From assembly GCA_025361385.1 (NCBI GenBank), contig JANYAJ010000174.1:1-16330 (forward strand): 16,330 nt of DNA, in the 5' to 3' direction. The translations under genes and the position numbers were made by a program. Below are positions 1,402-13,421 of this stretch, piece after piece. This DNA is from Nitrospira sp. GTDB lineage: Bacteria > Nitrospirota > Nitrospiria > Nitrospirales > Nitrospiraceae. Numbering within the stretch: the stretch's first letter is position 1; the number at the start of each line of letters is the position of its first letter. A model generated the notes under the pieces. That model was not told where the DNA came from. It saw nothing but the letters and a program-made list of their open reading frames with translations, and did no database searches.

Positions 1402-3582
1402 ATGAATCTGATTCGAGCGTTTCTGGATCGTCTATCGGATAGTCTCTTCGTCTCCGTACCGGAGAAGTTGGGGTTGGCGACCGAGTTGTCTAAGGCCCCG
1501 TCGCTACGTCTGGTGTCGGACAAGCCCCTGCTATCCACACCAATCGATCCTGCGATGCGCCGCCCACCCAGCCATTCCGTGAGTCCCGTGGATGCGCTCG
1601 ACGACGCAGTCAGGCGCAGTCAATCCTGGTTCCTATCCAAACAAGATGCATCCGAAGGCTATTGGGTTGCGGAGCTTGAAGCCGATACGACTCTGACCTC
1701 CGAATATCTGTTGCTGCGAAGGTTTCTGGATCGGGTCGATCCGGAACGCGAGCGCAAAGCGGTGCGCTATCTCCGCGCCATGCAATTGCCCGATGGCGGC
1801 TGGCCGATTTTCTACGGCGGCCCTTCGGAGATCAGCGCCTCGGTCAAAGCCTATTTTGCCTTGAAGTTGAGCGGTATTTCAGCCGATGAGCCGTACATGC
1901 TTCGCGCCCGTGACTGTATTCATGCCAAGGGCGGCGTGGTCTGTGCGAATGTCTTCACGAAAATCACCCTGGCCTTGTTCGAACAGTACGATTGGGAAGG
2001 CCTTCCGAGTATGCCGCCGGAGATCATGCTCCTGCCGAAGCGGTTCTACTTCAGCATCTATGCGATTTCCTATTGGTCGCGCGCCGTCCTGATTCCCCTG
2101 TTGGTCGTGTTTGCGAATCAGCCCGTCTGCCGTATTCCCAAAGAGCAGGGGATCGACGAACTCTATGTCTTTCCCCGGGCACAGATTCATTATCGCGACG
2201 TGCCACCGTTCAATAAGGATCAACGGTGGTTTACCCCGCATAATTTCTTCGTCCAATTGGACGGAGTGCTCAAACTTTACGACCGGATGCCGCTGAGTTG
2301 GTTGCGCGAAAAGGCGTTGCATACGGCGGCCACCTGGATGTTGGACCATATCAAGGGCAGTGGCGGGTTAGGGGCAATCTATCCGGCCATGGCGAACTCG
2401 ATCGTGGCGCTTCGCTGCCTCGGGTACCAGGTCGACGATCCCTTGGTCCGGAAGGCATTCCAGGAAATCGAATCGCTGGAAGTTTACAGCATCGTGTCGA
2501 TCGGCGATCAGCGCGTCGAGGCCCTACATCTCCAGCCGTGCCATTCTCCCATCTGGGACACGGCATTACTGATGAATGCTTTTATTGAAACCGGGATGCC
2601 GCAGGACCATCCCTCGCTCCAGAAAGCGGCTGCGTATTTGGCTTCCCGCCAGACAAAAACGGTTGGAGATTGGAAGTTCTCGGCCCCCAACGCAGAACCG
2701 GGAGGCTGGTACTTCCAGTTTGAGAACGAGCTCTATCCCGATGTGGATGACTCGGCCGTCGTGTTGATGGCCTTGTCGAAAGTTCGAATGGCTCAGACTT
2801 CTGAACTGCAAGAATCGATTCAGCGGGGAACGAACTGGGTGCTCGCCATGCAAGGGTCCGATGGCGGCTGGGGCGCATACGACAAAGATAATAATCGTAT
2901 CGTGTTCAACTACATCCCCTTTGCCGATCACCATGCCTTGCTCGATCCCAGTACGTCCGACCTGACGGGACGTTGCCTCGAGATGCTTGCCGCGCTGGGC
3001 TACGATCAGACACACCCTGCTGTGGGGCCGGCGCTCCGGTTTCTGAAGCGAGAGCAGGAAGCCGATGGCAGTTGGTATGGCCGGTGGGGCGTCAATTACA
3101 TCTATGGTACCTGGTCCGTTCTGGCAGGCCTGCGAGCGATCGGGGTGGATCTTTCGGAGCCCTATATTCAGCGTGCGGTCTCTTGGCTTGAATCGAAACA
3201 GAATCCCGATGGCGGCTGGGGCGAGTCCTGTCATTCGTACGGCGATGATCCTGCGTGGAGCGGGAAGGGAGACAGTACCCCGTCTCAAACGGCTTGGGCC
3301 ATCATGGGCCTGATGTCGGCCGGGATGACCGACGCTTTCAGCGTCGCTCGCGGCATTCAGTATCTGCTCCGTCATCAACTCAAGGATGGTTCATGGGAAG
3401 AGGTTCGCCATACAGGGACCGGATTCCCACGGGTGTTTTATCTCCGCTACCACTGGTATTGCCAATATTTCCCGCTGTGGGCCTTGGCCATGTACCGAAA
3501 TTTACGGACGCGCGGACACATGCGGGCCGATGAAGTGCGTGAACAGGTCTTGGCATCCGGGTGTCATCGAGCCGATCGTTGA
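1402..3582 (+). CDS. shc: Squalene-hopene cyclase
   Basis: Cyclises squalene to the pentacyclic hopanoids hopene/hopanol on the inner membrane, the committed step of hopanoid synthesis. The 726-residue product carries the catalytic DXDD motif as DVDD (residues 447-450), whose central Asp protonates squalene. Several QW-type repeats are visible: DGGWPIFYGG near residue 132, DGGWGAYDKDN near 488, DGSWYGRWG near 555 and DGGWGESCHSYGD near 604. Chosen start is the ATG at 1402, which has no clear Shine-Dalgarno. Another in-frame ATG at 1552 would give 676 residues, nearer the usual size of about 630-680, so the first 50 residues are either a lineage-specific amphipathic extension or untranslated. 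It is followed by hpnG and a lipid-transport block, probably in one transcript from the promoter at 1262-1290. Identification is very strong; the start is uncertain. Confidence 0.96.
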   Translation: MNLIRAFLDRLSDSLFVSVPEKLGLATELSKAPSLRLVSDKPLLSTPIDPAMRRPPSHSVSPVDALDDAVRRSQSWFLSKQDASEGYWVAELEADTTLTSEYLLLRRFLDRVDPERERKAVRYLRAMQLPDGGWPIFYGGPSEISASVKAYFALKLSGISADEPYMLRARDCIHAKGGVVCANVFTKITLALFEQYDWEGLPSMPPEIMLLPKRFYFSIYAISYWSRAVLIPLLVVFANQPVCRIPKEQGIDELYVFPRAQIHYRDVPPFNKDQRWFTPHNFFVQLDGVLKLYDRMPLSWLREKALHTAATWMLDHIKGSGGLGAIYPAMANSIVALRCLGYQVDDPLVRKAFQEIESLEVYSIVSIGDQRVEALHLQPCHSPIWDTALLMNAFIETGMPQDHPSLQKAAAYLASRQTKTVGDWKFSAPNAEPGGWYFQFENELYPDVDDSAVVLMALSKVRMAQTSELQESIQRGTNWVLAMQGSDGGWGAYDKDNNRIVFNYIPFADHHALLDPSTSDLTGRCLEMLAALGYDQTHPAVGPALRFLKREQEADGSWYGRWGVNYIYGTWSVLAGLRAIGVDLSEPYIQRAVSWLESKQNPDGGWGESCHSYGDDPAWSGKGDSTPSQTAWAIMGLMSAGMTDAFSVARGIQYLLRHQLKDGSWEEVRHTGTGFPRVFYLRYHWYCQYFPLWALAMYRNLRTRGHMRADEVREQVLASGCHRADR

Positions 3583-3638
3583 TCGCTTCGCCGACCTCCT
3601 CTCCTGCTGGCGTGGGGCAGCCTCCTGTAGGACCTTCG

Positions 3639-4412
3639 ATGGATCCCATCGCTATCTTTGTCGCGACTCGCTGGGAACTCCAGGCCGTTCAGCGTGCAAT
3701 CGCCACGGATCGTGTTACGACCATTGCCGGAGTCCGCTGTCAGATTGGGCACCAGGGGCAGCGCGCCTACTGGCTTATTCAAACCGGCGTCGGCCCCGCT
3801 GCGGCCAGTGCGGTTGCTGAAAAGGTGCTGAAGGCGCAGCCGATGTCGTTGGTTCTATCCACGGGTTTTGCCTGCGCGCTGATACCGGCTCAAGTGGGAG
3901 ACCTCATCGTTGGGACCGCCGTGTCATCTGTGCCGAGTGACGAAATGGGGACGACGGGGCATGGCTCGATATTGTGTGACGAGGCTGTGCGCTCAGGTCT
4001 TCTCGCCGTGGCAGAGGATGCGGGGATGGCGGTGCGAGTGGGAACAATCGTGTCAGGGCCGACTGTGGTATGGCAGGCCGAAGGCAAGCGCCGGCTGCGT
4101 CGTTTGACTGACGCGACGGGGCTCGATATGGAAAGCGCCGCGCTGGCATCGGTGGCTCGCGAACGCGGTGTGCCGATGGCGATCGTGCGGACGGTTTCCG
4201 ATCTCGTGGATGAAGATCTCCCTCTTGACTTCAACCTCTTTCTCAGGCCCACTGGCTGGATGAAAGGTATCTGGGCGCTCATCCGCCACCCCACTGGCTT
4301 CGTAGGGCTGAATCGGCTGCGAACACAGAGCCGAGTAGCAGCGGATCGATTGACCGAATGGTTTCAACTTTACGCAAAGTCGGACATCGAATCTCCTCGC
4401 TTGTCTAGGTAA
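3639..4412 (+). CDS. hpnG: Adenosylhopane nucleosidase / phosphorylase, HpnG type
   Basis: Member of the purine nucleoside phosphorylase / MTA-SAH nucleosidase superfamily. The hopanoid-linked HpnG removes adenine from adenosylhopane to give ribosylhopane or its phosphate on the way to side-chain-extended bacteriohopanepolyols. The 257-residue product shows E14 near the N-terminus, STGFACAL with VGDLIV (residues 74-91), the ribose-binding MES (164-166) and the catalytic Asp in TVSDLVDEDL (D188), matching the Glu/Met-Glu/Asp layout of MTA nucleosidases. I chose the ATG at 3639, with AGGA at 3629-3632 six bases upstream. A GTG at 3561 would overlap shc and add 26 Pro/Ser-rich residues with no family resemblance. 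Location 56 bp after shc and presence of hpnH in the window favour HpnG over a plain MTA/SAH nucleosidase. The substrate is inferred. Confidence 0.85.
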   Translation: MDPIAIFVATRWELQAVQRAIATDRVTTIAGVRCQIGHQGQRAYWLIQTGVGPAAASAVAEKVLKAQPMSLVLSTGFACALIPAQVGDLIVGTAVSSVPSDEMGTTGHGSILCDEAVRSGLLAVAEDAGMAVRVGTIVSGPTVVWQAEGKRRLRRLTDATGLDMESAALASVARERGVPMAIVRTVSDLVDEDLPLDFNLFLRPTGWMKGIWALIRHPTGFVGLNRLRTQSRVAADRLTEWFQLYAKSDIESPRLSR

Positions 4413-4415
4413 CTG

Positions 4416-5186
4416 ATGACGAATGTGATTGAACAGCTGGGTGCGCGGGCCATCCTCCGTATACAGGAGATGGGGCGCATGTTGTTGTTTGTGCTGTCGG
4501 CCTGTGCCTGGCTGGTGCGGCCTCCGTTTCGATTCCATCAAATCATGAAACAGCTCCACTTCATCGGGTATAAGTCCGTGTTTGTCGTTGTGTTGACGGC
4601 GGGCTTTACGGGGATGGTGCTGGCGCTTCAAGGCTATTATAGTTTGCGGAAGTTCGGTTCCGAGGGGTTGCTGGGTTCTGCGGTGGCGTTGAGCATGATC
4701 CGGGAGTTGGGGCCCGTGTTGGCGGCGTTGATGGTGACGGCGCGGGCTGGTTCAGCCATGACCGCTGAGATCGGCATTATGAGGATTACGGAGCAGATCG
4801 ATGCGCTCGATACGATGGCGATCAACCCGATGCAATATCTGATCGCACCGAAATTGGTGGCGGGCGTGATCGGGGTGCCGTTGCTCGTGGCGATCTTCGA
4901 CGTGGTCGGTATCTATGGCGGATCCCTCGTCGGAGTGGATTTGTTGGGCGTGAGCGAAGGGGCCTACTGGAACTCGATCGAATCGGCGGTGGAATGGAAA
5001 GATATCTACGGCGGCATTCTCAAGTCGATCAGCTTCGGGCTGATCATCAGTTGGATCTGTTGCTATAAAGGATTCTACACGAGACAGAGTGCCGAGGGAT
5101 TGGGAAGTGCCACGACGGAGGCCGTCGTCTTGTCGTCGGTGCTCATCCTCGTCTGGGACTATTTTCTCACCTCGGTCTTGCTCTAA
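4416..5186 (+). CDS. mlaE: Mla-type lipid ABC transporter permease MlaE
   Basis: Inner-membrane permease of the MlaFEDB-type complex that moves lipids between the inner membrane and the periplasmic carrier MlaC. The 256-residue protein has the family hallmark RELGPVLAALMVTARAGSAM followed by EIGIMRITEQIDALDTMAINP, and about five hydrophobic segments (FVVVLTAGFTGMVLAL, then AALMVTA, LVAGVIGVPLLVAIFDVVGIYG, ISFGLIISWICC and a C-terminal helix). Length is that of E. coli MlaE (about 260). The ATG at 4416 lies 3 bases after the hpnG stop, which implies translational coupling; TAGGT at 4406-4410 is a weak ribosome site. Next come mlaF, mlaD and mlaC in the classical order. No MlaB (STAS) gene is seen. 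Confidence 0.93.
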   Translation: MTNVIEQLGARAILRIQEMGRMLLFVLSACAWLVRPPFRFHQIMKQLHFIGYKSVFVVVLTAGFTGMVLALQGYYSLRKFGSEGLLGSAVALSMIRELGPVLAALMVTARAGSAMTAEIGIMRITEQIDALDTMAINPMQYLIAPKLVAGVIGVPLLVAIFDVVGIYGGSLVGVDLLGVSEGAYWNSIESAVEWKDIYGGILKSISFGLIISWICCYKGFYTRQSAEGLGSATTEAVVLSSVLILVWDYFLTSVLL

Positions 5187-5191
5187 TACTC

Positions 5192-5947
5192 ATGATCAAG
5201 CTCGTTGGCGTCGAAAAAAAGCTGGGTGGGCAACCGGTGTTACAGGGCGTCGATCTCTCGATCCCCGTCGGCAAGCTGACGACCATTATCGGCCGCAGTG
5301 GAGAGGGAAAGAGTGTGCTCCTCAAGCACATGATCGGGCTGATGCAACCGGATCGCGGCGAGGTGTGGGTCGGTGATGTGGAGATCTCCCGGTTGTCGGG
5401 CACAAGGTTGAACGATGTGCGGAAACGTTTTGCCATGCTGTTTCAAGGCGCCGCGTTATTCGATTCTCTTTCCGTCTTCGAGAACGTGGCCTTTCCATTG
5501 CGCGAGAAATTGCGCATGAAGGGCTCGGCGGTGACCAAACGGGTTGAGGAAAAGCTGGGGGAAGTCGGGCTGGAGGGGATGGGACACAAGCTCCCTGCCG
5601 AGTTGAGCGGGGGCATGCGGAAACGGGCAGGATTGGCACGGGCGCTGGTCATGGAGCCTGAAATCATTCTCTTCGATGAGCCCACGACCGGGCTGGATCC
5701 GTTGATGGCGAAATCAATTCACGATTTAATCGTCACGATGCAGCGGCGGTTCGGTTTTACGGCGGTGATGGTCAGCCATGAAATTCCAGAGATCTTTGGG
5801 ATTTCCGATTGGGTGGCGATGCTTCGGAAAGGCAAGATTGCGTTGATGGCCCCGGCCGCTGAGTTCCAGCGGACCACCGATCCGGAGATTCACGAATTTA
5901 TTTCAGTCGGTGGGACTGTGGCGTTGCCTGGATCGCTCGTTGGGTGA
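5192..5947 (+). CDS. mlaF: Mla-type lipid ABC transporter ATP-binding protein MlaF
   Basis: Cytoplasmic ATPase that powers the MlaE permease. All ABC motifs are intact in its 251 residues: Walker A GRSGEGKS (34-41), Q-loop FQGAALFDSL with Q85, signature LSGGMRKRAGLARAL (from 138), Walker B IILFDEPTTGLDP (158-170) and switch histidine H196 in VSHE. The LSGGMRKR form is typical of the MlaF/Ttg2A subfamily. It starts 5 bases after the mlaE stop with no obvious ribosome site, so translation is probably coupled to mlaE. Length fits the family (about 250-270). Confidence 0.94.
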   Translation: MIKLVGVEKKLGGQPVLQGVDLSIPVGKLTTIIGRSGEGKSVLLKHMIGLMQPDRGEVWVGDVEISRLSGTRLNDVRKRFAMLFQGAALFDSLSVFENVAFPLREKLRMKGSAVTKRVEEKLGEVGLEGMGHKLPAELSGGMRKRAGLARALVMEPEIILFDEPTTGLDPLMAKSIHDLIVTMQRRFGFTAVMVSHEIPEIFGISDWVAMLRKGKIALMAPAAEFQRTTDPEIHEFISVGGTVALPGSLVG

Positions 5948-5964
5948 GAGGGGGAGTACTGAGG

Positions 5965-6408
5965 ATGGAAAAAGCCAAGCTGGAGATGGTGGTTGGTGTG
6001 TTCGTGCTCGTCGGCATCTTGTGCCTCGGCTATCTGGCGGTCAAGCTCGGGAAACTCGAGCTGGTCAGCGGCGACGTCTATGAGGTCGACGCGCAGTTCA
6101 ATACGGCCTCGGGGCTCAAGCCCGGTTCGACGATCGAAATCGCCGGCGTCGAAGTCGGCCGGGTACGCGGGATTGTGCTCAAGGAGGATCGTGCGATGGT
6201 GAAGTTGGCGGTTAATAACACCGTCAAGCTCTACACCGACACGATTGCCTCTATCAAAACGCGGGGCATCATCGGAGAGAAATTTCTCGCGCTGTCTCCG
6301 GGGGGGGGTGGCGATCCGCTCAAGCCGGGGGATACGATACGGGATACCGAATCGGGCCTCGATCTTGAGGAGTTGGTGAGTCAGTACGTGCATGGCAAAG
6401 TGAACTGA
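5965..6408 (+). CDS. mlaD: MCE-domain lipid-binding protein MlaD
   Basis: Periplasmic-facing MCE subunit, anchored by one N-terminal helix, that forms a hexameric ring on the MlaE permease and passes lipid to or from MlaC. The 147-residue product begins MEKAKLEMVVGVFVLVG, a typical MlaD membrane anchor. The MCE core follows (YEVDAQFNTASGLKPGSTIEI, then AGVEVGRVRGI, IKTRGIIGEKFLALSPG). It ends with a short helix (LDLEELVSQYV). It is shorter than E. coli MlaD (183 residues), mostly at the C-terminus. Start is the ATG at 5965 with GAGGGGGAG (5948-5956) eight bases upstream; a GTG at 5944 overlapping the mlaF stop is less likely. Confidence 0.92.
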   Translation: MEKAKLEMVVGVFVLVGILCLGYLAVKLGKLELVSGDVYEVDAQFNTASGLKPGSTIEIAGVEVGRVRGIVLKEDRAMVKLAVNNTVKLYTDTIASIKTRGIIGEKFLALSPGGGGDPLKPGDTIRDTESGLDLEELVSQYVHGKVN

Positions 6409-6459
6409 CCATCCGATCGTAGAGAACAGACGGGCGTTTAGCAGGGGGGAGGAGTATCC

Positions 6460-7113
6460 ATGGAGATCCAGGGGTCTGCCGGTCGATCAGCGCAGGGATG
6501 GGGTTGGGCAAGGGCCGCGAGTGGGATGGCCTGTTTGCTATTGTTGCTCAGCGTCGTGGCGCTCCAGCCTGCAGTCGCTGGTGGCGCGACCGAGGCCATG
6601 AAGAGCACCATCGACGAGGTGCTCAGGGTCATTCAGGACAAGGAATTGAAACAGCCGGCACGAGCTGAAGAGCGCCGGAAGAGATTGGAGCAGGTTGTCG
6701 GGGACCGGTTCGATTATCCTGAAATGTCGAGACGGGCGCTCGGGGCTCCTTGGAATACGCTCGCCGATAAAGACAAACAAGAGTTCGTCGCTCTGTTCCA
6801 GACGCTCTTGACGAATTCCTATGCCGACAAGGTCGAGACCTATTCTGGTGAGGGAGTGCAGTACCTTAATGAACGGGTCGATAAGGAGTTTGCCGAGGTG
6901 CGGACGAAGGTCCTGACCGGCAAGACCGAAATCCCTCTCGATTACCGCTTGCTCAATAGGGGTGTGGAGTGGCGAGTCTACGATGTGGTGGTGGACGGCG
7001 TGAGTTTGGTGAGTAATTACCGTGGACAGTTCGCCAAAATTCTCCGCTCCTCAAGTTATGCCGACTTGGTCGATCAGCTCCGCAAGAAATCCGATAAGAT
7101 CAAAGCCCCGTAG
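6460..7113 (+). CDS. mlaC: Periplasmic lipid-binding protein MlaC (Ttg2D/HpnM-like)
   Basis: Soluble periplasmic shuttle that carries a lipid between the MlaD ring and the outer membrane. The 217-residue precursor has a Sec signal peptide with hydrophobic core MACLLLLLSVVAL and a likely cut after A40 (PAVA/GG). The mature part has the MlaC/Ttg2 pattern: FDYPEMSRRALGAPWNTL, FVALFQTLLTNSYADKVETY, then YDVVVDGVSLVSNYRGQF. Start ATG 6460 has a strong ribosome site, GGAGGAG around 6448-6454. The hopanoid-cluster protein HpnM belongs to this same family (established knowledge), so with shc and hpnG upstream this copy might carry hopanoids. That substrate is inference; phospholipid is equally compatible with the sequence. 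Confidence 0.9.
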   Translation: MEIQGSAGRSAQGWGWARAASGMACLLLLLSVVALQPAVAGGATEAMKSTIDEVLRVIQDKELKQPARAEERRKRLEQVVGDRFDYPEMSRRALGAPWNTLADKDKQEFVALFQTLLTNSYADKVETYSGEGVQYLNERVDKEFAEVRTKVLTGKTEIPLDYRLLNRGVEWRVYDVVVDGVSLVSNYRGQFAKILRSSSYADLVDQLRKKSDKIKAP

Positions 7114-7130
7114 AGATCTCCAGGAACTCC

Positions 7131-8333
7131 ATGCCAAGCTTGCGCGGCTGTATCGCCGTTGCCCTCCTGTTTCTTGCGGCGAGTGTCGCCTCGCTGCCTG
7201 AGGACGTACGAGCCGACGTTCAATACTTTCCGGTTCCGTCCGTATCGACCAGCAAGAACGATGGGAACGATGTCGGGCTGATCACGCCGATTTTGATCAC
7301 GGACCCTGACGGAGAGTTGAAGTACATCGTCGCCCCGATGGTCGTTCACAATTCCATCGTCGGGACGCGCGGGGCGCTCAACCTCTTTCGCTACGAACCG
7401 GGGGGGCGTGAGATTCGTTTCATCGGCTCCTTCACGGAGCGGATCGAGCGGAAACTGGTATTCAGTTATGCCGATCCAGCCTTCAGTCATGGACGCTACT
7501 CGCTGAACTTCGGTGCCTCGTTTTTCAAGAATGCCACCTCTCGTTTTTTCGGGTTAGGAGAAGCGACCTCTGAGCCTCAACAAACGAACTATACGGCGCG
7601 GGAAGGGCGGCTAAACTGGCGATTCGGGGTCTATGCCAACGAGGTTACCCAGATTTCCATTGGCCAGCGTTTTCGGGATGTAAGCCTGCAAAAAGGCGGC
7701 ACCGATCTCCCCTTTACCGGCGACCGATTTTCGACGGTCGATGGCGTGCAAGGCGAGTCGCTGATTCTCGGCCACCGGGCGACGTTTTATTACGATACGC
7801 GCAACAGTCTTGTCACCCCGACCGACGGCATGGCCGTAACGGCTTATGCAGAAGTGAATCAGAATATTCGCAATGGGGATCATCCCGTCTACTCTCGCTA
7901 CGAAGTCGAGGTCAAGAAACTGTTCCCGAGCGAGTCGAAGCGCGCGATTCTCGTCGTGCGGGCGGATCTTCAGGCGACAATCGGGACACAGGTTCCGTTC
8001 TTCGAGCAAAGCTCCTTGGGTGGACAAAACAACCTCCGGGGGTTTGGTGGCGATCGTTTCATCGACAAGCATCTTGTGTCGCTCAGCATCGAGGAGCGGA
8101 TTCATTTGGCGAGGACGAGGGTTGCGGGCGTCATCGCGGATTTCGAAGTCGCGCCGTTCCTGGATACAGGACAGGTCTTCAATGACTATAAGGACGTCAG
8201 CTTTAAGAGTTATCGCATGACTCCGGGTGTCGGATTCCGCGGCATCGTGCGGCCCAATGTCGTCGGACGCGTCGACTACGGCTACAGCCGGGAAGGTGGT
8301 GCGATCTATGCGGGGTTGGATTTCCCTTACTGA
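7131..8333 (+). CDS. Omp85-family (BamA/TamA-like) outer-membrane beta-barrel without POTRA domains
   Basis: The 400-residue precursor starts with a signal peptide (hydrophobic IAVALLFLAASVA, cut probably after A28, VRA/DV). The rest is consistent with alternating outer-membrane beta strands. The Omp85 loop-6 motif is clear as GGQNNLRGF (residues 297-305, R303), followed by late strands (VAPFLDTGQVF, MTPGVGFRGIV, GRVDYGYS) and an aromatic C-terminus, GLDFPY. The mature part of about 370 residues is enough for a 16-strand barrel only, so there is no room for the POTRA repeats of BamA or TamA. ATG 7131 has AGGA (7122-7125) five bases upstream, and lies 17 bp after mlaC. The position suggests it is the outer-membrane partner of the Mla-type shuttle, where MlaA would sit in E. 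coli. That role is inference. Confidence 0.85.
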   Translation: MPSLRGCIAVALLFLAASVASLPEDVRADVQYFPVPSVSTSKNDGNDVGLITPILITDPDGELKYIVAPMVVHNSIVGTRGALNLFRYEPGGREIRFIGSFTERIERKLVFSYADPAFSHGRYSLNFGASFFKNATSRFFGLGEATSEPQQTNYTAREGRLNWRFGVYANEVTQISIGQRFRDVSLQKGGTDLPFTGDRFSTVDGVQGESLILGHRATFYYDTRNSLVTPTDGMAVTAYAEVNQNIRNGDHPVYSRYEVEVKKLFPSESKRAILVVRADLQATIGTQVPFFEQSSLGGQNNLRGFGGDRFIDKHLVSLSIEERIHLARTRVAGVIADFEVAPFLDTGQVFNDYKDVSFKSYRMTPGVGFRGIVRPNVVGRVDYGYSREGGAIYAGLDFPY

Positions 8334-8848
8334 CCTTCGTCGCTGTCGTGGCGTAGGTGGGGTCTTGATCCTGCAGTTGCGGTGAGGCTCTTCTGGTGGC
8401 GGGAGAGAGGGCTTGGAGCTTGGCTGCGCAGCAGCTATGCCGAAGGGCTTGGGCATTCCCGGTTCGGAACTTTTAGCCGCTCCAGATGTTGGCTCTGGGA
8501 ATACCTGGCGATCGCGTGACGGTGGTAAGTCAAGGTACGGTCGATGTGCGAGTAGAGTTGGCAGATACTGCGTCGATCTTCAATGAATTGCGCCTGAATC
8601 AAGTGCGGTCATGAAATTCGAAACAGTCCGGTCCGGATTGTTTATTCGGTACGGCACAGCTGTCCGACTGAAGATGGCGCTTGATGTACCGATCAACTGC
8701 ACCTGCACCTGCTTTGGCAGGTCTCCGGCGTCGAGAATGTGGGCTTCATCACTGGTGGGTCGGAAGACTGTACGCTCTCGACGGTCTTCACTCATCGAGT
8801 CGAGTCATGAGTGAGATGGGGCGTGCGGGGTGTAGGCTGGCTAACCGC

Positions 8849-8877
8849 TTGACAACATGGGAGTTCCATGTGAAAAT
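8849..8877 (+). promoter_or_regulatory. Sigma70-type promoter for dxs-ispG
   Basis: A perfect -35 TTGACA (8849-8854) is followed after 17 bp by GAAAAT (8872-8877), which matches the -10 consensus at four of six positions. Predicted start is near 8884, about 95 nt before the dxs ATG. An inverted repeat fills the spacer, which would allow control by a bound protein. Confidence 0.5.
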
Positions 8878-8977: not shown

Positions 8978-10927
8978 ATGTCGATCTTGAAGACCATTCA
9001 CAGCCCGGCTGATCTGAAACGGCTCTCACCAGCGCAGTTTCCTGTTTTGTGCCAGGAGTTGCGGGAGCAGATTATCGGCGTGGTCTCTAATGTCGGAGGC
9101 CATCTGGCCTCGAACCTTGGAGTGATTGAACTGACGGTCGCATTGCACTATCTGCTCGATACGCCACAAGATAAAATCGTCTGGGATACCAGCAATCAAG
9201 CCTACGCGCATAAACTCCTCACCGGGCGCCGGGAGCAATTTCATACGCTCCGGCAGTACGGGGGTATGAGCGGCTTCACCAAGCGCGAAGAGAGTGTCTA
9301 CGATACGTTCAACGCAGGCCATGCGGGTACCGGCGTATCCGCCGCCTTTGGGTTGGTCGCTGCCCGTGAGCAATTGGCGCAGCATCATAAGGTCGTCTGT
9401 GTCGTCGGGGATGGCGCCATGACCGCCGGGATGACGCTGGAAGGGCTGCATCATGCTGGAGGGTTAGGGAAAGATTTCCTGGTCATCCTGAACGACAATC
9501 AAATGTCCATTTCGAAGAATGTTGGAGCCATTTCCTCGTATTTGAACCGGACCTTTACCGGAGAGTTTTACACGAAGATGCGAGAGGAAACAGGGCAGCT
9601 GTTGGGAAAGATTCCCCATATTGGGCAGGACATGCAGAAGTGGGCTCGCCGAGCCGAAGAATTGGCGAAAGGCGCGATCCTTCCCGGTCTGCTCTTTGAA
9701 GAACTTGGGTTCAGGTATGCCGGACCGATCGACGGCCATAACTTTGAGCATCTGTTGCCCACCTTGGAGAATGTGTTGAAGATGAGGGGGCCTGTGTTGC
9801 TCCATGTCATCACGAAAAAAGGGTTGGGGTATGAGCCTGCGGTGAACAATCCGGTTTGGTTCCATGCCTGTCCGCCTTTTGTGCGGGAAACCGGGGCGCC
9901 GGCCAAGAAAGCGGCTCGACCGTCTTATACGCAGATCGCCATCGAATCATTGGTGAAGCTGGCCCGTCACGATAAGCGCATCGTCGCGATTACGGCTGCG
10001 ATGTGTGAAGGGACCGGCCTGAATATTTTCGAGAAGGAGTTCCCGGACCGGATTTATGATGTGGGTATTGCCGAACAGCATGCGGTGACGTTTGCGGCTG
10101 GTCTGGCGACGCAGGGCCTCCGTCCTGTGGTGGCCATGTATTCCACCTTCTTGCAGCGGGCGTACGACCAGGTGGTGCACGACGTTGCGACGCAAAACCT
10201 TCCGGTAACTTTCTGCATCGATCGCGGCGGGTTAGTGGCGGAAGACGGGACGACTCACCATGGGGCGTTCGATTATGCGTTCCTGCGCCACATGCCGAAC
10301 ATGGTGGTCATGGCGCCGAAGGATGAAAATGAGTTGCAGCATATGATGAAAACCTGCGTCGGGCATGATGGGCCAGCCTCAGTACGGTATCCTCGAGGGC
10401 TGACCTTGGGCGTGACGATGGATCAGGAACCGAAGGCCTTGCCGATCGGGAAGGGTGAACTTTTGCAGGAAGGCACAGATGTCGCGATTGTCGCGATCGG
10501 TGTGTCGGTCTGGCATGCAGTGACGGCCGCAAAACGGCTTGAAGCAGAAGGTATTTCAACAGCGGTCGTGAATGCGCGTTTTGTGAAGCCGTTGGATCAG
10601 GATTTGATCGTTGGGGTCGCGAAAAAAGTTCGCTATGTCGTGACCGTTGAAGAAGGCAGTAAAATGGGTGGGTTCGGTTCAGCAGTACTCGAAGCCCTGT
10701 CAGACGGTGGCGTGACGGATGTGAGGACGAAGGTCCTTGGGTTGCCGGATTGGTACATCGAGCAAGGACCGCAAGACTTCCTGCGCGAGCGGTATGGGTT
10801 GACGGCGGAAGGCATTTATCAGAGCGTGAAGGAATTGATTGGTCAGGCGCAGGCTCCCTCACGGGAACAGCGCACGCTTGCCACCTTGGCCGATCGGCTG
10901 CCGCATGGAGACGAGCAGGGGAGCTAA
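8978..10927 (+). CDS. dxs: 1-deoxy-D-xylulose-5-phosphate synthase
   Basis: ThDP enzyme condensing pyruvate and glyceraldehyde 3-phosphate, the first step of the MEP isoprenoid pathway. The 649-residue product is of usual length. Visible: H42 in GGHLASNLG, ThDP/Mg motif GDGAMTAGM (from G144) with N172 in LNDNQMS, catalytic E366 in AEQHAVTFAAG, YSTFLQRAYDQ (from 388) and the D423/H427 segment AEDGTTHHGAFD. Odd point: the usual GHQAY reads SNQAY, so a His that is normally conserved is N73 here. Start is the ATG at 8978, with AAGGAG (8964-8969) eight bases upstream; an upstream TTG at 8906 gives 24 extra unconvincing residues. ispG follows after 24 bp, so both are probably co-transcribed from the promoter at 8849-8877. 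Confidence 0.95.
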   Translation: MSILKTIHSPADLKRLSPAQFPVLCQELREQIIGVVSNVGGHLASNLGVIELTVALHYLLDTPQDKIVWDTSNQAYAHKLLTGRREQFHTLRQYGGMSGFTKREESVYDTFNAGHAGTGVSAAFGLVAAREQLAQHHKVVCVVGDGAMTAGMTLEGLHHAGGLGKDFLVILNDNQMSISKNVGAISSYLNRTFTGEFYTKMREETGQLLGKIPHIGQDMQKWARRAEELAKGAILPGLLFEELGFRYAGPIDGHNFEHLLPTLENVLKMRGPVLLHVITKKGLGYEPAVNNPVWFHACPPFVRETGAPAKKAARPSYTQIAIESLVKLARHDKRIVAITAAMCEGTGLNIFEKEFPDRIYDVGIAEQHAVTFAAGLATQGLRPVVAMYSTFLQRAYDQVVHDVATQNLPVTFCIDRGGLVAEDGTTHHGAFDYAFLRHMPNMVVMAPKDENELQHMMKTCVGHDGPASVRYPRGLTLGVTMDQEPKALPIGKGELLQEGTDVAIVAIGVSVWHAVTAAKRLEAEGISTAVVNARFVKPLDQDLIVGVAKKVRYVVTVEEGSKMGGFGSAVLEALSDGGVTDVRTKVLGLPDWYIEQGPQDFLRERYGLTAEGIYQSVKELIGQAQAPSREQRTLATLADRLPHGDEQGS

Positions 10928-10951: not shown

Positions 10952-12133
10952 ATGCATATTACTAGACGGAAAACCAGGCAGATCACGGTCGGAAAGCTCA
11001 AGATCGGCGGAGATGCGCCCGTGTCCGTGCAGTCGATGTGCTCGACTGACACGCGAGATGTCGTCGCGACGATCGAGCAAATTCGCCAGCTGGAGGCCGC
11101 AGGGTGTGAAGTTATCCGTGTGGCCGTGCCGGACGACGAAGCGGCGGCGGTGTTGCCTAAGATCAAAGCGGCGATGACCGTGCCGTTGATCGCGGATATC
11201 CACTTCGACCATCGGCTGGCATTGAAAGCCGCCGAGGTTGTCGACTGCGTTCGGATCAATCCCGGCAACATTGGGGCTTGGTGGAAAGTCGAAGAAGTCA
11301 TTAAGGCTGTGAATGAGCGGGGCATTCCTTTGCGCATCGGCGTGAACGGCGGGTCTCTTGAGCGGCCGTTGCTGGACAAGTATGGCTGGCCATCACCCGA
11401 AGCCTTGGCCGAATCAGCGCTCAACGCCGTCCACGCGTTAGAGGACGTTGGGTTTACGAATATGAAGGTGTCGTTGAAGGCATCCGATGTGCATCATGCC
11501 ATTGATGCCTATTGGTTATTTGCCCATCAGTCCGACTATCCTGTGCATATCGGTATTACAGAGGCGGGAACGGCGATGACGGGGGCCGTCAAGTCGACCA
11601 TGGGGCTTGGATACTTGCTCTCGCAGGGAATTGGCGACACGCTGCGCGTGTCGCTGGCTGCTGATCCGGTTGAAGAAGTCAAGGTAGGGTTCGAGATCTT
11701 GAAGTCGCTCGAACTTCGCCATCGAGGGATCAATGTCATCGCTTGCCCAACCTGTGGCCGTGTTGAGATCGATGTGGTGAAGCTGGCCAACGAATTGGAA
11801 AAGAAGCTCGGCCATATCACGACCCCGTTGAATGTGTCGGTCCTTGGCTGTGTCGTGAACGGGATTGGCGAGGGGAAGGAAGCGGATATCGGGATTGCCG
11901 GTGGTGAAGGCAAGGGGATCCTCTTCAAGAAGGGCAAGCTCGTTCGCAAGGTGCCCATCGAAGAGTTGATGGACACGCTGATTCAAGAGGTCGAGTTGAT
12001 GGCCAAGGAAAAGGAAGCTGAAGGGAATGGGACGGTCGTGGTCCCTTCGAACGAAGGATGGGAATCGATGAGTTCGCAGTCGGATGAGCCTACCACGCTT
12101 GGAAAAGAAATCCCTGTGTTGCCCAACCGCTGA
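10952..12133 (+). CDS. ispG: 4-hydroxy-3-methylbut-2-en-1-yl diphosphate synthase (IspG/GcpE)
   Basis: [4Fe-4S] enzyme of the MEP pathway that reductively converts MEcPP to HMBPP. The 393-residue product has the N-terminal barrel (VSVQSMCSTDTRD; PLIADIHFD; VRINPGNIG) and the cluster ligands C265 and C268 in ACPTCGR, C300 in VLGCVVNG and E307 in GEGKEADIG, corresponding to E. coli C270, C273, C305 and E312. It is the compact bacterial form, without the plant insert. The last 40 or so residues after EELMDTLIQEVELM are a Glu/Ser-rich tail of unknown use. Start ATG 10952; the only purine-rich ribosome-site candidate, AGAGGAAG near 10927-10935, is rather far upstream, so coupling to dxs is likely. 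Confidence 0.96.
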   Translation: MHITRRKTRQITVGKLKIGGDAPVSVQSMCSTDTRDVVATIEQIRQLEAAGCEVIRVAVPDDEAAAVLPKIKAAMTVPLIADIHFDHRLALKAAEVVDCVRINPGNIGAWWKVEEVIKAVNERGIPLRIGVNGGSLERPLLDKYGWPSPEALAESALNAVHALEDVGFTNMKVSLKASDVHHAIDAYWLFAHQSDYPVHIGITEAGTAMTGAVKSTMGLGYLLSQGIGDTLRVSLAADPVEEVKVGFEILKSLELRHRGINVIACPTCGRVEIDVVKLANELEKKLGHITTPLNVSVLGCVVNGIGEGKEADIGIAGGEGKGILFKKGKLVRKVPIEELMDTLIQEVELMAKEKEAEGNGTVVVPSNEGWESMSSQSDEPTTLGKEIPVLPNR

Positions 12134-12404: not shown

Positions 12405-13421
12405 ATGGCCGTTCCACTTTCCCAGATGTTTACAGTCACGAAGTACGTGCTCACCCAGAAGCTCACCAGGGTGAAGCGGTATCCGCTCGTGTTGATGCTG
12501 GAGCCCTTATTCCGGTGTAATTTGGCCTGTGCCGGCTGCGGAAAGATTCAGTACCCGGACCATGTGCTGGATAAGCGACTTACTCCGGAGCAATGCTGGG
12601 CTGCGGCGGAAGAATGCGGAGCCCCGATCGTCAGCATTCCCGGCGGAGAGCCGATGATCCATCCCGAAATGGCATCGATTGTTCGCGGGCTGGTCGCACA
12701 GAAACGGTACGTCTATCTCTGTACCAATGCGATTCTGATGGAACGGAAACTCGATGAGTATGAGCCGTCGAAGTTCCTCACGTTCAGCGTCCACATGGAT
12801 GGACTGAAAGATGAGCACGATCTGGCGGTGTGCCGGGATGGCGTCTATGACGTCGCGGTGAAGGCCATCAAGGCGGCGTTGAAGCGGGGACATCGGGTGA
12901 CCACCAATACGACGCTCTTCGATGATGCCAATCCTGAGCGCGTGCGCAAGTTTTTCGATGCGATGATGGAACTCGGCGTCGAAGGCATGATGATCTCGCC
13001 GGGGTACAGCTACAATAAGGCGCCGGACCAACAGCATTTTTTGAAGCGAGAACGCACAAGGGAATTATTTTCCCGTATTTTGGGGAGTCCGAAGAAGGGG
13101 TGGCAGTTTAATCAGTCACCGCTGTTCCTCGATTTCTTGATGGGGCGCCGGGAGTATGAATGCACGCCTTGGGGCAATCCAACCTATAACGTATTCGGGT
13201 GGCAGAAGCCCTGCTACTTGCTTCAGGAAGGCTATGCGAAGACGTTCCGTGAGCTGATGGATAGCACGGAATGGGATCACTACGGGACGGGGCGAAATGA
13301 GAAATGCGCCGATTGCATGGTGCATTGCGGCTATGAAGCGTCGGCAGTCGAAGATACCTTTGGCACGTTGTCCGGGTTTGGCCGGACTGTGAAGTTAACG
13401 ATGCTCCCTACCTCGCGATGA
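12405..13421 (+). CDS. hpnH: Radical SAM adenosyl-hopene transferase HpnH
   Basis: Radical SAM enzyme that adds the 5'-deoxyadenosyl group of SAM to the hopene side chain, giving adenosylhopane, the substrate of HpnG. The 338-residue product has the radical SAM cluster motif CX3CX2C as CNLACAGC (C38, C42, C45) and SAM-binding GGEP (80-83) in IVSIPGGEPMIHPE. A second cysteine group, C301, C304 and C308 (CADCMVHCG), is in the C-terminal region typical of HpnH. Start ATG 12405 has AAGGAG (12391-12396) eight bases upstream. It is separated from shc/hpnG by about 8 kb but lies next to dxs-ispG, so isoprenoid supply and hopanoid elongation are neighbours. Identification is strong. Confidence 0.94.
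   Translation: MAVPLSQMFTVTKYVLTQKLTRVKRYPLVLMLEPLFRCNLACAGCGKIQYPDHVLDKRLTPEQCWAAAEECGAPIVSIPGGEPMIHPEMASIVRGLVAQKRYVYLCTNAILMERKLDEYEPSKFLTFSVHMDGLKDEHDLAVCRDGVYDVAVKAIKAALKRGHRVTTNTTLFDDANPERVRKFFDAMMELGVEGMMISPGYSYNKAPDQQHFLKRERTRELFSRILGSPKKGWQFNQSPLFLDFLMGRREYECTPWGNPTYNVFGWQKPCYLLQEGYAKTFRELMDSTEWDHYGTGRNEKCADCMVHCGYEASAVEDTFGTLSGFGRTVKLTMLPTSR

Follow-up and report, generated by a model that had tools for sequence, protein, structure and literature searches.

Gene content of the locus

The window studied here is a stretch of 16,330 nucleotides (positions 1 to 16,330 of contig JANYAJ010000174.1, assembly GCA_025361385.1; contig C20 in our set) from a Nitrospira-like metagenome-assembled genome (MAG) of 3.05 Mb in 562 contigs, 82% complete (G000), in which genes for hopanoid synthesis stand in one row with a Mla-type lipid transport operon and a beta barrel. 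Hopanoids are bacterial sterol-like lipids, and Nitrospira are nitrite-oxidising bacteria. The original prediction, made from the sequence alone, read seven closely spaced genes here (shc, hpnG, mlaE, mlaF, mlaD, mlaC and an Omp85 barrel), and all seven are confirmed, on the plus strand (Table 1). Counted from likely starts, the gaps from shc to the barrel are 56, 3, 5, 17, 51 and 17 bases, in agreement with the predicted 0–60; the hpnG and mlaD frames are open from 3561 and 5944, and their likely ATG codons at 3639 and 5965 were read from the sequence.

The row holds MlaE, MlaF, a short MlaD and MlaC, that is, a Mla lipid ABC system, with PF02405, PF02470 and PF05494 all over their family cut-offs and MlaF under its equivalog cut-off. 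As a hopanoid biosynthesis cluster the locus has shc and, further downstream, hpnH over cut-off, while the hopanoid-associated model is the best match of hpnG but stays under its cut-off. The 400-aa barrel protein belongs to the Omp85 superfamily by its PF01103 barrel domain; no POTRA model matched it at E 0.001, so that it does not classify as BamA or TamA.

Table 1. Features annotated in the window, with the models or scans behind each
Feature	Position	Strand	Evidence
shc, squalene-hopene cyclase	1402..3582	+	TIGR01507 768 bits (cut-off 431)
hpnG, hopanoid-associated nucleoside phosphorylase	3639..4412	+	PF01048 88 bits; TIGR03468 103.5 bits (under cut-off 187)
mlaE, lipid ABC permease	4416..5186	+	PF02405 285 bits
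mlaF, ABC ATPase	5192..5947	+	best NCBIfam PRK11831 MlaF 209 bits (under cut-off 441)
mlaD, short MCE protein	5965..6408	+	TIGR04430 (OM_asym_MlaD) 140.3 bits (cut-off 135)
mlaC, periplasmic lipid carrier, EFDC type	6460..7113	+	PF05494 169.5 bits; TIGR03481 100.3 bits (cut-off 160.1)
Omp85-superfamily beta barrel	7131..8333	+	PF01103 64.9 bits; NF047779 138 bits (under cut-off 200)
DUF3187 gene remnant, decayed	8414..8807	+	tblastn pieces, broken frames
promoter-like site before dxs, TTGACA-17-GAAAAT	8849..8877	+	promoter scan
dxs	8978..10927 (about)	+	TIGR00204 814 bits; start read from sequence
ispG	10952..12133	+	NF001540 494 bits
hpnH, adenosyl-hopene transferase	12405..13421	+	TIGR03470 553 bits (cut-off 225)

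Conservation of the gene row

Our survey covered Nitrospirota, with tables drawn from 395 genomes of the phylum. A genome scan with the window Shc gave 214 relatives, of which the best 80 were kept (79 titled Nitrospira, Nitrospiraceae or Nitrospirae/Nitrospirota and one Nitrosospira, L082); the nearest are Nitrospira or Nitrospirota MAGs with Shc at 98% identity. In 71 of these best 80 the row from shc to the barrel is complete and in order, eight of the remaining loci being cut by a contig end and one having E and F swapped, so the arrangement is more than chance and is not confined to one genome, a restriction that would have counted against the original prediction. With starts taken mechanically, median gaps between shc and the barrel run from −4 to 36 bases in the relatives, and 407 of the 448 gaps measured are 60 bases or less; dxs lies further from the barrel, at a median distance of 410 bases. 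A single transcript from shc to the barrel and a shared envelope function are likely. Most loci of family f1 share this gene order, as do f3 and a part of f2.

Inheritance of gene order from the ancestor of the order, with no functional coupling, could also produce such a pattern. The gene to the left of shc, which we take to be smc from its sequence, is kept in most f1 loci, in f3 and in f4 much as the block is, and is not known to have a hopanoid role. Yet the left neighbour differs in f2 and the block stays together, the gaps inside the block are small, and the block was probably joined to shc a second time in a different order (below). We consider mere inheritance improbable.

Past the barrel the hopanoid set continues with dxs, ispG, a tRNA-Cys gene (the sole Rfam match at the gathering threshold) and hpnH. 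Between the barrel and dxs lies a decayed DUF3187 gene, whose best tblastn piece per query has an E-value of about 1e-14 to 1e-24; the gene is intact at this place in 34 of 70 relatives' loci, about half, and a relative's copy matches PF11383. Scans for promoters and terminators returned no more sites than shuffled sequence does. The promoter-like site before dxs was the one site found against 3.5 expected in shuffles, and such a site occurs in 10 of 71 loci but in just 1 of the 139 stretches used as controls, which hints weakly at a promoter of its own for dxs.

An EFDC-type operon with an ordinary MlaC

Of the 395 genomes, 230 have a Shc match (187 over cut-off), 370 a MlaE match, 219 a short MlaD above cut-off and 29 an HpnN above cut-off. 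We fetched 20 loci around short mlaD genes lying away from shc, 15 of them from genomes without Shc over cut-off (three of these with weak Shc matches) and five from genomes with shc elsewhere. These loci read E-F-D with C, some with an MlaA gene or a presumably TolC-like gene before C; the exceptions are one without a visible C, one with C on the opposite strand and one contig without E. In another 19 MlaE loci E-F-D stands without an MlaC match nearby, and in the four of them inspected D is 480–491 aa long. Protein trees group the window's Mla proteins with the EFDC operons. Because E-F-D(-C) operons occur away from shc across the phylum, the shc-linked block is, on this comparison of sequences, the canonical Mla operon of the phylum and of the order. 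The source genome has a second MlaE on contig C207, with no MlaC match nearby, and a second MlaC, an orphan on C481. At L002 (1420–2277) an orphan MlaC-family gene stands near two genes that we take to be cytochrome-peroxidase-like and Crp-like.

HpnM of classical hopanoid clusters is in the MlaC family, and it had been proposed on that ground that the window MlaC may do the job of HpnM. The scores do not bear this out: against the HpnM model TIGR03481 (cut-off 160.1) the window protein reaches 100.3 bits, in line with three MlaC proteins from mla operons unlinked to shc (90.3–100.7 bits) and with the shc-linked MlaC of a genome that carries HpnN (L169, 105.4 bits), while four HpnN-linked proteins score 189–196 bits; the orphan MlaC of the source genome scores 57.6 bits. 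In a quick MlaC tree of 107 rows, built from part of the fetched loci, 21 rows of an HpnN group split off on a fully supported branch and the window MlaC falls outside it, with the EFDC type. Twenty of the 21 adjoin HpnN, and the remaining one (L128) adjoins shc in a genome with HpnN elsewhere, so that the phylum has a case of shc next to an HpnM-type MlaC; the window is not such a case. Score and tree thus remove HpnM homology as an argument for a hopanoid cargo, and by both the window protein is an ordinary EFDC-type MlaC.

Two probable joinings of mlaEFDC to shc

In family f16, which belongs to another class, three loci (L118, L202 and L211) show the order E-F-D-TolC-C-(rSAM)-hpnH-shc-hpnG, with a presumed TolC gene before C and a presumed radical-SAM gene (rSAM) that is present in two of the three. 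In a concatenated tree of the E, F, D and C proteins from 38 of the fetched loci (C missing in two), the 16 rows of the Nitrospirales block and the three from f16 form separate clades with shc-unlinked operons between them. A forced single clade of shc-linked blocks is rejected by the approximately unbiased (AU) test at p 0.001, a value weakened by the choice of the tested group after the gene maps and a first MlaE tree had been seen. MlaE alone (trees of 70 and then 45 rows, from part of the fetched loci, as was the barrel tree of 37 rows) gives p 0.069 for the same constraint and was set aside as proof, not being decisive. These trees make it probable that mlaEFDC was linked to shc on two separate occasions in Nitrospirota. 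The alternative is an ancestral linkage followed by loss of shc in the lineages between; independent joinings are favoured because the gene order in f16 is opposite to that in Nitrospirales.

Apparent exchange of the pump with an RND protein

At the shc locus mlaEFD is missing in three f2 genera (g16, g18 and g19), in the f1 genus g12 and in f4, and in all 18 readable loci of this kind mlaC is kept beside shc (g16, 12 of 12, with two more cut; g18, one; g19, three; g12, one; f4, one, with one more cut). The f4 locus L199 has an 841-aa RND protein (RND2) between a shortened hpnG and mlaC, in the position of mlaEFD. RND2 stands directly after shc in L200, followed by the contig end, after an intact-looking hpnG in L283, and behind ispG in g12. 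Full-length relatives of RND2 (at least 47% identity) were found in 16 of 43 genomes searched. Six of the 43 (G362, G252, G356, G396, G420 and G421) were left out of the table. Among the 37 genomes in it, RND2 is present in all 10 that lack linked mlaEFD and in 2 of the 27 that have it (Fisher p 2e-7, with no correction for kinship). Linked mlaEFD and the HAE-3-like RND2 thus follow an either-or pattern in which mlaC is kept. On the Shc tree each changes five times, and in independent pairs RND2 runs opposite to mlaEFD in three to four of five and in the same direction never.

The best NCBIfam model for RND2 is HAE3 (174 bits, under the cut-off of 352) and the second is HpnN (108 bits, cut-off 752), and the nearest solved sequences by profile, as partial matches, are an NPC1-related protein and HpnN. 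Hopanoid exporters are placed in the HAE-3 group in a review (PMC8277102).

In G356 (f4, 96% complete), which has no true Shc and no HpnH over cut-off, the syntenic place (L282, L289) lacks shc, hpnG and the barrel, and RND2-mlaC-dxs-ispG is left. This one genome ties the barrel to hopanoids and disfavours a carrier and pump that serve hopanoids only. G324 and G338 were rejected as natural losses of shc, since neither a true dxs nor the upstream smc-like gene was found there and the locus is probably absent from these assemblies. In G157, of a related class, MlaA, MlaC and RND2 stand in one row on one strand away from shc (L288, 2999–7086), so RND2 is paired with an MlaC outside the hopanoid locus as well.

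HpnN and the barrel

A second hopanoid transport set of the HpnN type elsewhere in the genome had been named as evidence that would count against a hopanoid role for the block. No HpnN over cut-off was found in the source genome (82% complete; best RND match E 3e-9) or in any of the 14 further genomes drawn from its genus. In f2, 16 of 27 genomes are without a MlaE match and 15 of these 16 carry HpnN; of the 11 with MlaE three have HpnN, in one case divided between contigs. As a general replacement of mlaEFD, HpnN was rejected: over the 37 genomes the association has p 0.31, independent pairs run both ways, and RND2 fits better. In nine f2 loci that were read (L179–L187), HpnN is divergent to an MlaC gene, of HpnM type by the tree, and an MlaA gene, making a mixed RND-MlaC-MlaA set. 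In G164 (f25) a full mlaEFDC lies next to HpnN, HpnM and MlaA (L195, 6362–14673).

The barrel is the part that follows shc most closely. At the shc locus of f2 it is absent in all 16 readable loci of HpnN-bearing genomes (18 in total, two cut) and present in 7 of 7 without HpnN, a comparison that covers about three HpnN changes on the Shc tree and the barrel at that locus only. It also occurs with shc and without mlaEFDC, in f8 (shc-hpnG-barrel, L116) and in six f22 loci, one of which (L121) has an HpnG-like gene between shc and the barrel. Two f1 genomes have HpnN in pieces, apart from three with HpnN over cut-off that are discussed below, and three other f1 loci (L151, L158 and L163) have the DUF3187 gene and no barrel. 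Three f22 loci (L119, 6743–8962; L212, 1251–3410; L213, 4551–6707) hold a frame of 719–740 aa with an Omp85 barrel, which has the look of a fusion of an hpnG-like gene with the barrel; in L119 the stretch before the barrel matches nucleoside phosphorylase weakly (PF01048, 22 bits, under cut-off).

A possible route for hopanoids

There are several possible explanations for this gene row. We give about an even chance to the reading that the hopanoid operon of Nitrospirales captured the lineage's canonical Mla pump together with a POTRA-less Omp85 barrel, probably for hopanoid export. Under it, Shc would make hopene in the inner membrane and HpnH and HpnG would extend it; MlaFED, as an ATP-driven MCE pump, would load MlaC with the hopanoid, probably along with other polar lipids, and MlaC would deliver it to the outer membrane, where the barrel may receive or insert it. 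Cargo, direction and the role of the barrel are inferred, as is the single transcript, and the balance tips slightly towards hopanoid as a cargo. A stronger form, in which MlaFED, MlaC and the POTRA-less barrel would be a dedicated ATP-driven ABC/MCE export route that replaces HpnN, is exchangeable with the HAE-3-like RND pump at the same spot and has the barrel as outer-membrane receiver, we entertain tentatively, its chance being somewhat under even.

Several observations weigh against the capture reading. The same EFDC operon as in the window is present in relatives without shc, and the window MlaC is of the ordinary type. Nine of the 15 genus genomes have no MlaE other than the one linked to shc, which therefore probably does general Mla work too. 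MlaA was found in 150 of 156 genomes of the order, though not in the source genome (82% complete). Three f1 genomes with HpnN over cut-off beside an HpnM-type MlaC still keep EFDC and the barrel. G362, outside the table of 37, has shc with neither linked mlaEFD nor RND2; corrected for kinship, the exchange rests on about five changes (sign test p 0.125–0.25); RND2 has no hopanoid genes as neighbours in L286 and L287, the two f2 loci without EFD whose surroundings were read; and the shc-less G356 keeps RND2 and MlaC.

Much of this is what one would expect if the block were simply the usual phospholipid Mla system of Nitrospirales, whose MlaA is encoded elsewhere, and were co-transcribed with the hopanoid genes only as both serve the order of the outer membrane, never handling hopanoid. 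The EFDC operons without shc, the ordinary MlaC, the frequency of MlaA, the sole MlaE, the RND2-MlaC pair kept in G356 and the MlaA-MlaC-RND2 row of G157 are all consistent with it. The probable double joining to shc fits it poorly, however, as does the affinity of the pump found in place of mlaEFD, nearest the HAE-3 group that holds HpnN, and mlaC stays beside shc without mlaEFD even though a further MlaC lies next to HpnN in those HpnN-bearing f2 genomes that were inspected. We give a purely phospholipid role a chance somewhat under even.

Returning to capture for hopanoid export, a pump exclusive to hopanoids is less likely than one of mixed role, because we see here the canonical Mla operon, with an MlaE that is without a paralogue in those nine genus genomes; the pump is probably not exclusive. 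The proposal that a lipid-specific pathway stands here in place of phospholipid maintenance is accordingly not shown by our data, given the canonical operon, the sole MlaE and the common MlaA. The wider claim, that the whole unit makes a hopanoid and moves it to the outer membrane, is partly supported: wide conservation of the unit in Nitrospirales, the lack of HpnN over cut-off and an RND pump where mlaEFD is absent and mlaC is kept speak for it, while the HpnM argument has fallen and the cargo does not follow from the sequence.

Relation to known systems and significance

With the Mla system (MlaFEDB-MlaC-MlaA) the window shares MlaE, MlaF, a short MlaD, MlaC and the order E-F-D-C; its block differs in having no visible mlaB or mlaA and in its link to shc, to hpnG and to an Omp85 barrel. 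The RND-type HpnN-HpnM set likewise places a lipid pump of the inner membrane and a carrier of the MlaC family next to hopanoid genes, whereas the window has an ABC/MCE pump, an MlaC outside the HpnM clade and under its cut-off, and an extra outer-membrane barrel. PMC10942540 describes BstABC sterol transport in Methylococcus, where transport genes also lie among genes for polycyclic triterpenoid synthesis, but with an RND pump (BstA) and unrelated carriers (BstB and BstC). In the Veillonella Mla system, as far as the available text of PMC10665443 goes, a Mla pump is likewise combined with an outer-membrane barrel, there carried by an elongated MlaD as part of the same polypeptide; MlaA and MlaC are lacking, and there is no hopanoid link. 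MCE systems are implicated in cholesterol transport in the abstract of PMC9882608, a precedent for polycyclic cargo.

HpnN is named a hopanoid transporter, with HpnM possibly involved in transport, in the consulted passages of PMC12583986. Both shc and hpnH are recorded in marine Nitrospirales in PMC10579370, whose available sections do not mention transport genes. Searches of open-licence papers on hopanoids with MlaC, HpnM, mlaE or Nitrospira Mla showed no report of an shc-hpnG-mlaEFDC-barrel operon in the text consulted.

The path that hopanoids take to the outer membrane has been outlined for HpnN. Among the Nitrospirota genomes of our draw, 187 have Shc over cut-off and 29 have HpnN over cut-off, so that most genomes with shc are without it. 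If hopanoid export by the captured pump is true, a major nitrifier group would use a Mla-type pump for a sterol-like lipid, and the cargo of Mla and MCE systems would be broader than phospholipid. Hopanoid delivery would also gain an outer-membrane partner, and the phylum would offer a natural exchange series, ABC versus RND pump with one carrier, for testing what sets the cargo.

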